The notes below the pieces were generated by a model, which was not told where the DNA came from, did no database searches, and worked only from the letters and a program-made list of their open reading frames with translations. A stretch of DNA of 64,000 nt from NCBI RefSeq assembly GCF_014199525.1, contig NZ_JACHNU010000003.1, forward strand, positions 1 to 64,000. Reading direction: 5' to 3'. The position numbers and the translations under genes are program-made. The stretch is from Conexibacter arvalis (GTDB taxonomy: Bacteria > Actinomycetota > Thermoleophilia > Solirubrobacterales > Solirubrobacteraceae). This document shows, one piece after another, positions 29,671 to 48,139 of the stretch (the stretch's first letter is position 1; each line of letters starts with the position of its first letter).

Positions 29671-30855
<1,185 letters not shown>

Positions 30856-30970: not shown

Positions 30971-33073
<2,103 letters not shown>

Positions 33074-33116
33074 TGGCTCGGTTTCTACTCGCGGTCTCGT
33101 CGTCGGCGAAAGGCAC

Positions 33117-33140
33117 AAAAATGGCCCCAGCGGGGCCCGG
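33117..33140 (-). terminator. Intrinsic terminator in the fusA leader
   Basis: On the minus strand GGCCCC-GCT-GGGGCC is followed by ATTTTTG: an all-GC 6-bp stem, triloop and five T residues (33117-33121). This is the only hairpin I found in the window with a clear T-tract, and it lies upstream of the fusA start, not downstream of a gene. Confidence 0.7.
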
Positions 33141-33173
33141 TCATGACTGAGATGTCTTCCCGGGGCTCGTGCT

Positions 33174-33194
33174 CTAGTTCGTCGAAGTCTCCAT
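33174..33194 (-). CDS. Candidate leader peptide METSTN upstream of fusA
   Basis: ATG 33192-33194 opens six codons (Met-Glu-Thr-Ser-Thr-Asn) then TAG. GGAGG at 33204-33208 ends 9 nt before the ATG, better than the fusA site itself. The ORF ends 34 nt before the terminator stem, so a ribosome at its end would cover the GAGCCCC segment that can compete for the terminator. No conservation data are available. Confidence 0.4.
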
Positions 33195-33257
33195 GGGTCG
33201 TGACCTCCGAGTCTGGAGCCGGGCGCAAGCGCGCACGCCTCCGGGAGGCGGCGAATG

Positions 33258-33266
33258 AATATAGCA
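33258..33266 (-). promoter_or_regulatory. Extended -10 promoter (TGC-TATATT) for fusA
   Basis: TATATT at 33258-33263 with TGC directly upstream (33264-33266) fits the extended -10 class, which needs no strong -35. The predicted start near 33251 gives a leader of about 178 nt. Upstream of rpoB (TGC-TATCTT) and rpsL (TGC-TAGCAT) the same form recurs. Confidence 0.55.
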
Positions 33267-33335
33267 AAGGCGCGCGAGTCGCTCGGTGCGCATTGGGTTT
33301 TCGCCCCCTGGGGGCGAGCGGCCGATTAACGACGA

Positions 33336-33360
33336 CGCGCCGCTGTCTGCCAGCGGCGCG
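33336..33360 (-). terminator. Hairpin after rpsG
   Basis: Perfect 10-bp arms CGCGCCGCTG (33336-33345) and CAGCGGCGCG (33351-33360) with a 5-nt loop, 30 bp after the rpsG stop. No T-tract. Confidence 0.55.
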
Positions 33361-33389: not shown

Positions 33390-33860
33390 CTACCAGCGGT
33401 AGTGCGCGAAGGCCTTGTTGGCCTGCGCCATGCGGTAGATGTCGTCCTTGCGCTTGTAGGCGCCGCCCTGCTGCGACTGGGCGTCGAGCAGCTCGTTGGC
33501 GAGGCGCTGCGCCATCGTCTTCTCGCGGCGCTGACGGGCGAACAGCACCAGCCAGCGGACGGCGAGCGTGCGGGCGCGGCGCGGCTGCACCTCGACCGGC
33601 ACCTGGTAGGTGGCACCGCCGACGCGGCGGGAGCGGACCTCGAGCGACGGGGTGAGCGCCTTGACCGACGCCTCGAGCGCCTCGATCGGGTCTCTGCCGG
33701 TGCGCTCGGCGAGGATCGCCAGCGCGTCGTAGACGATGCGCTCGGCGGTGGACTTCTTGCCGTCCAGCATCACCTTGTTGATGACCTGCTGGACGAGGCG
33801 GGAGCGGTGGAGGGCGTCCGGCTCGATCGGCCGGATCGACGCGGCAGCGCGGCGGGGCAT
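33390..33860 (-). CDS. rpsG: 30S ribosomal protein S7
   Basis: This 156-residue S7 has the conserved [18 protein letters not shown] region near residue 79 and [12 protein letters not shown]. It nucleates the 30S head. Its ATG overlaps the rpsL TAA (TAATG). Confidence 0.97.
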
Positions 33861-48130: not shown

Positions 48131-48139
48131 AAGATAGCA
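48131..48139 (-). promoter_or_regulatory. Extended -10 promoter (TGC-TATCTT) for rpoBC
   Basis: TATCTT at 48131-48136 with TGC at 48137-48139. The start would be near 48124, giving a leader of about 54 nt to the TTG start. Confidence 0.5.

Follow-up and report, generated by a model that had tools for sequence, protein, structure and literature searches.

A six-codon open reading frame and terminator ahead of fusA-tuf in Solirubrobacterales: a candidate ribosome-mediated attenuator of an elongation factor operon

In the 64 kb of Conexibacter arvalis DNA analyzed here (the window), the interval between rpsG, whose stop codon lies at 33390, and fusA, which encodes elongation factor G (EF-G) and is followed by the EF-Tu gene tuf, contains a compact leader that combines a promoter element, a very short open reading frame (the mini-ORF) and an intrinsic-terminator-like hairpin. 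A previous sequence-only reading had proposed that these elements form a translation-sensing attenuator, and when we reread the interval, the extended −10 element, the GGAGG, the ORF encoding METSTN and the hairpin with its T-tract were all found where that reading had placed them. The leader elements lie on the minus strand, and their coordinates come from direct reading of the sequence (Table 1).

Table 1. Elements of the fusA leader and adjoining genes in the window
Feature	Position	Strand	Basis
Extended −10 promoter element TGCTATATT; transcription start expected near 33251	33258..33266	minus	Direct reading
5′ leader containing small hairpins (CGCCTCCCGGAGGCG; GCGCGCTTGCGC)	33195..33250	minus	Reading and folding
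GGAGG, Shine-Dalgarno-like, 9 nt ahead of the mini-ORF ATG	33204..33208	minus	Direct reading
Mini-ORF ATGGAGACTTCGACGAACTAG, six codons, METSTN, stop TAG	33174..33194	minus	Reading and order-wide comparison
Candidate antiterminator 5′ arm CCCGG, +10 to +14 past the mini-ORF stop	33160..33164	minus	Pairing with 33136..33140
Small conserved hairpin GAC...GTC within the candidate antiterminator	33145..33156	minus	Alignment of relatives
Candidate antiterminator 3′ arm CCGGG, overlapping the terminator 5′ arm	33136..33140	minus	Pairing with CCCGG
Intrinsic-terminator-like hairpin GGCCCC-GCT-GGGGCC (33137-33123), A, TTTTT (33121-33117)	33117..33137	minus	Reading
fusA (EF-G), first gene under the proposed control, ATG at 33073	30971..33073	minus	Translation; matched in genomes of the order
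tuf (EF-Tu), second gene	29671..30855	minus	Translation

Minimum free energy folding of the whole leader is not unusual (z = −0.56), and the case therefore rests on conservation. Both the mini-ORF and the stem, whose absence from close relatives would have spoken against an attenuator, are conserved in the genus and through the order. BLAST found the leader in five of six genomes of the same genus, with mini-ORFs encoding METSTN, METSTI, METSTS or METSTR and ending in TAG or TAA. Among 181 Solirubrobacterales genomes, fusA was located in 149, and we read 130 upstream regions, 126 of which had at least 200 nt; a mini-ORF ahead of a GGGCCC-type terminator is present in 97 of these 126. The plan shared across the order is a TGCTATNNT promoter, the mini-ORF, about 32 nt, the terminator and fusA. 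In most of family f1, TGCTATNNT lies at a near-constant distance of about 74 nt ahead of the mini-ORF ATG. The spacing from stop codon to terminator is 29–41 nt (mode 32), and the terminator columns are near-invariant over 77 leaders.

The mini-ORF is conserved in its length rather than its sequence. Among 96 distinct leaders, a tally in which 14 mini-ORFs were added by eye and then checked by script, it has six codons in 88, seven in 6, five in 1 and eight in 1. The start codon is ATG in 93, GTG in 2 and TTG in 1, and the stop codon TAG in 74, TAA in 20 and TGA in 2. The peptide itself is variable, with 72 different versions, a last residue that may be T, R, N, A, I, S, G, K, Y or P, and no residue run shared among the 72 peptides. 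An amino-acid leader-peptide attenuator of the trp/ilv type was rejected, since these peptides have no codon run in common. The combination of a free peptide and a fixed length suggests that the position of the ribosome, and not the sequence of the peptide, is what matters.

When 61 genomes were scanned with a covariance model built from 77 leaders, 52 of them had a single strong match at E ≤ 1, in nearly every case beside fusA. Among its weak matches elsewhere in the genomes (E > 0.1), two regions (L292 and L293) contained no mini-ORF leader when inspected by eye. Sixty fusA regions sampled from other families of the class also lacked the leader by eye, with fusA there following rpsG. Since the element is absent from these 60 genomes and present in the nearest named genome, a Solirubrobacterales metagenome-assembled genome whose mini-ORF encodes METLQN, it looks, on the sequences compared, to be specific to the order.

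Within the window, an ATG-initiated ORF of 5–8 codons followed after 20–48 nt by a GC stem and a T-tract occurs once on both strands of the 64 kb, at the fusA leader. The hairpin had also been singled out as the only one noticed with a clear T-tract. In a loose pattern scan alone, terminator-like sites in the window were no commoner than in shuffles; this hairpin is unique in joining an all-GC stem of 6 bp or more to an uninterrupted T5. TGCTATATT occurs once in the window, and beyond it just one further TGCTATNNT-like site, TGCTATCTT (48131–48139, minus strand), lies on the two strands. Rfam covariance models at the gathering threshold gave no match to the leader; the only match in the window was a tRNA.

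Which gene does the leader serve? The control had been proposed to act on EF-G. In four genomes (G013, G048, G101 and G112), however, the native fusA has been lost and an intact leader stands directly ahead of tuf (leaders L299, L298, L300 and L297, respectively). 

The mini-ORFs of this tuf lineage have the form ATGCAG......ACATAG. In three of these genomes the tuf gene behind the leader is 90–92% identical to the tuf of the window along almost its full length, and in G048 it is 100% identical over the 33 residues compared; the only fusA found in the four genomes is a divergent copy elsewhere (62–64% identity) that has no leader match. G031 has two fusA copies; the leader accompanies the copy that has kept its native rpsG context, and the divergent copy has none. 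Because the leader adjoins tuf where the native fusA is gone, and because the divergent fusA of G031 lacks it, the leader looks like a control of the fusA-tuf, or elongation factor, unit and not of EF-G specifically. The leader and rpsG are 55 to about 1500 nt apart, and frequently no rpsG is seen upstream. As the promoter lies ahead of the terminator, in those genomes where the end of rpsG is absent or far away the terminator separates fusA from the only candidate promoter found.

How might a ribosome on the mini-ORF alter the terminator? In the clade of the window (genera g1 and g25), an element 7–14 nt past the stop codon can pair with the terminator 5′ arm around the conserved GAC...GTC hairpin. 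The two arms co-change in relatives while keeping their position (CCCGG:CCGGG, CCCTG:CAGGG, CCTGTG:CACAGG and GCCCGT:ACGGGC), and the GAC...GTC columns are kept or show a G-U variant in 17 of 17 sequences, except for one broken pair. In families f2 and f3, reading by eye puts CCGGGC at this position, complementary to GCCCGG in the arm and loop of the terminator. The pairing foreseen between CCCGG past the stop and the terminator arms can form in the window with CCGGG, which overlaps the 5′ arm; the scheme differs by clade. In group A of family f1 (f1-A; 21 gap-free leaders), a hairpin, P1, extends from the third base of the stop codon to the terminator; its start is paired in all 21 leaders. 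P1 covaries, with 84.8% of cells paired and a score of 0.213 compared with 0.148 in shuffles (0 of 500 reached it, a comparison that relatedness of the leaders can inflate), and every slid version scored lower. Since P1 misses the terminator arms, the pairing scheme is not uniform across clades: a mutually exclusive antiterminator candidate is present in g1, g25, f2 and f3, and none was seen in f1-A. A covariation search for a long-range f1-A antiterminator between 5′ leader and terminator gave no convincing helix, and RNAalifold on mixed clades was uninformative.

We modeled occlusion by partition-function folding with an imposed ribosome footprint, a thermodynamic calculation that ignores kinetics. 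Outside f1-A, placing the ribosome on the start codon gave a predicted terminator probability of 0.725, and moving it to the stop codon raised this to 0.878. The difference, 0.153, compares with 0.048 (standard deviation 0.033) in shuffled spacers, and 0 of 25 shuffles reached it. For the leader of the window, the modeled probability rose from 0.50 with the ribosome at the start to 0.99 with it at the stop. In clades other than f1-A, modeling thus points to a switch in which a ribosome at the stop would favor the terminator and one at the start the antiterminator.

On balance, we think it probable that the leader controls the fusA-tuf operon by ribosome-mediated transcription attenuation. Transcription would start at the extended −10 element, about 60 nt ahead of the mini-ORF. 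A ribosome at the mini-ORF stop would cover approximately the first 10–12 nt past it and block the antiterminator 5′ arm, allowing the GGGCCC hairpin to terminate the transcript before fusA. If ribosomes were absent or held at the start, by translocation or aminoacyl-tRNA delivery that low EF-G or EF-Tu or inhibitors had slowed, the arm would be free to pair with the terminator 5′ arm, and RNA polymerase would read into fusA-tuf. Ribosomes at codon 1 and at the stop would be about 15 nt apart, enough to free or cover an element 7–14 nt past the stop; since such a shift would suffice, it could explain why the length of the ORF is fixed while its peptide is free. We infer that the mini-ORF is translated, that transcription ends prematurely in vivo and that the leader answers a signal so as to place the elongation factors under negative feedback. 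Low EF-G or EF-Tu activity would be the natural signal, and the leader would respond to ribosome speed and to inhibitors.

The last sense codon may add to this. In 82% of six-codon leaders (L034–L141) the sixth codon has A as its final base, and the last codon is ACA in 53 and AGA in 12 of the 96 leaders, whereas in eight genes of the window A-ending codons make up 1.2% of codons and ACA 1 of 153 Thr codons. This disparity marks the last codon as a selected, and possibly slow, site. The genus of the window is mostly an exception, with last codons AAC, ATC, AGC, CGC and CGA. A more tentative extension, which we hold to be possible but would not favor, is that the leader acts as a translation speedometer: the time taken over six near-arbitrary codons, the last of them very rare, would be read by RNA polymerase at the adjacent terminator and would set the supply of EF-G and EF-Tu. 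If so, an entire bacterial order would have direct elongation factor homeostasis that is independent of any amino acid, peptide or drug.

Several observations weigh against attenuation by the ribosome. In some f3 genera the terminator remains but the mini-ORF is missing, and the leader is absent from a few f1 genera (g24, g20). An SD-like (Shine-Dalgarno-like) 4-mer is present at only 18 of 97 mini-ORFs, and GGAGG, found in five of six leaders of the genus, that of the window included, is not conserved beyond it. The g1/g25 antiterminator helix averages 5.4 bp compared with 4.7 bp in shuffles (maximum 5.8) and is, taken alone, suggestive. In f1-A, P1 does not overlap the terminator arms and occlusion had no effect (0.031, compared with 0.043 in shuffles), and kinetics have no part in the model. 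What endures of the attenuator first proposed is therefore an order-wide leader of mini-ORF and terminator with a candidate antiterminator that a ribosome could mask; GGAGG as a general feature, specificity for EF-G and a uniform pairing scheme do not.

Two candidate signals for the ribosome were rejected: a conserved Shine-Dalgarno sequence, because of the count just given, and the GGAG of ATGGAG as an SD-like pause at the stop. The latter is not essential, since roughly one leader in four has another sequence there, codon 2 being GAT, GAC, GAA, ACG, GTG or others in place of GAG (CAG in the tuf lineage). The 5′ leader also contains a small hairpin with a near-invariant GCUCA loop about 30 nt past the promoter (L048, L056, L068, L078, L079, L081, L104, L121 and others). 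It is conserved in f1, with a similar CGCTCA in f2 and f3 leaders, and is a possible binding site for a protein or the ribosome.

One alternative is autogenous or ribosomal-protein control, in which EF-G, EF-Tu or an S10-operon protein such as L4 would bind the leader RNA and shift the terminator, with the mini-ORF secondary. Although the GCUCA-loop hairpin near the 5′ end in f1 and the f3 terminators that have no mini-ORF would fit, such control would not account for a mini-ORF whose length is fixed while its sequence is free and its start and stop codons are exchanged, and the leader matches no Rfam family. The survival of the leader after loss of the native fusA makes binding of EF-G unlikely to be its point. 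We consider this explanation unlikely. A switch of opposite sign, to which we give similarly little credence, would have a ribosome that is paused at the rare last codon or stop, or is awaiting recycling by EF-G and RRF, melt P1 and so favor read-through. Ribosome recycling requires EF-G, and this model would therefore give direct feedback; the start of P1 within the stop codon, on its third base, paired in 21 of 21 f1-A leaders, and the rarity in window genes of the conserved pre-stop codon also speak for it. However, P1 lies clear of the f1-A terminator, and modeling of the other clades gives a higher, not a lower, terminator probability once the ribosome is at the stop.

It is also conceivable, but very improbable, that an independent small RNA or micropeptide gene happens to precede fusA, with the terminator as its own 3′ end. 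Such a gene would have its own promoter, ORF and terminator, as seen here, but in all four families the element immediately precedes fusA without exception (or tuf, where fusA was lost), has 72 peptide sequences and one copy per genome, and leaves little room for a further promoter in the short gaps between terminator and fusA. Least credible is that the hairpin is merely the terminator of the rpsL-rpsG operon, as rpsG upstream in the window might suggest, since a promoter precedes the hairpin, the distance to rpsG varies, many genomes have rpsG outside the upstream DNA examined or more than 700 nt away, and a separate hairpin stands directly behind rpsG in the genus. At this separate hairpin (33336–33360, minus strand), TCGTCGTT comes after a perfect GC inverted repeat (CGCGCCGCTG...CAGCGGCGCG); the arrangement is kept in most genomes of the genus and is possibly the 3′ end of rpsL-rpsG.

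Matching elongation factor supply to the number and speed of ribosomes is an old question, to which the usual answers are ribosomal-protein feedback and growth-rate control of promoters. If the fusA-tuf leader is a ribosome-mediated attenuator, a whole order appears to govern its EF-G/EF-Tu operon with a minimal sensor of translation. The contrast between free peptide and fixed ORF length, together with the rare last codon and the post-stop hairpin, makes position and timing testable by single-codon changes. Our reading also suggests that these soil bacteria would step up elongation factor production when exposed to translation inhibitors.

The regulatory logic has precedents. The whiB7/wblC leaders of Actinomycetes combine a short upstream ORF (uORF) that is not amino-acid specific with a Rho-independent terminator, and translation of the uORF favors the terminator while impaired translation favors the antiterminator (PMC11550727). 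We propose the same logic and claim no homology: whiB7/wblC is a stress transcription factor, whereas the fusA leader would control an essential elongation factor operon through a six-codon ORF of free sequence with no general Shine-Dalgarno sequence. By location, too, the leader falls outside whiB7/wblC, as the strong model matches, one per genome, adjoin fusA or tuf. In the ilvB(NC) attenuators of Corynebacterium and in M. tuberculosis ilvB1, the terminator forms once a ribosome that has reached the uORF stop masks the antiterminator (PMC13236596; PMC11109978). A stop-positioned ribosome would likewise mask the antiterminator in the fusA leader, but the ilvB uORFs are rich in the sensed Leu, Val and Ile and the fusA mini-ORF has no run of one residue.

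Other comparisons are more distant. In streptococci, an attenuator was predicted in the same rpsG-fusA interval, along with rpsL leaders (Naville and Gautheret, 2010; PMC2965389). As far as its text description allows comparison, that element is structural, belongs to another phylum and is one of several unlike variants, and the description mentions no mini-ORF. The topAI-yjhQ uORF of E. coli is described as sensing ribosome-targeting antibiotics generally (PMC12121999) and, going by that account, controls other genes. We found no description of a fusA/tuf uORF attenuator of this kind in the open-access literature (subscription papers lay outside the search). By comparison with these systems, the logic is already known from whiB7/wblC and ilvB, and its use on an elongation factor operon with a free six-codon ORF would be new.

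Two further features accompany the terminator. In f3 genera g33, g45 and g47, the fusA leaders that have no mini-ORF (L127–L148) have the same type of promoter, with the terminator 25–58 nt past the −10 element, and a conserved CGTCGCTC(A/G)GG near their start. In most families, a conserved GCC(C) lies a few bases past the T-tract (33112–33116 in the window) and could pair with GGGC of the terminator 3′ arm in the read-through form.
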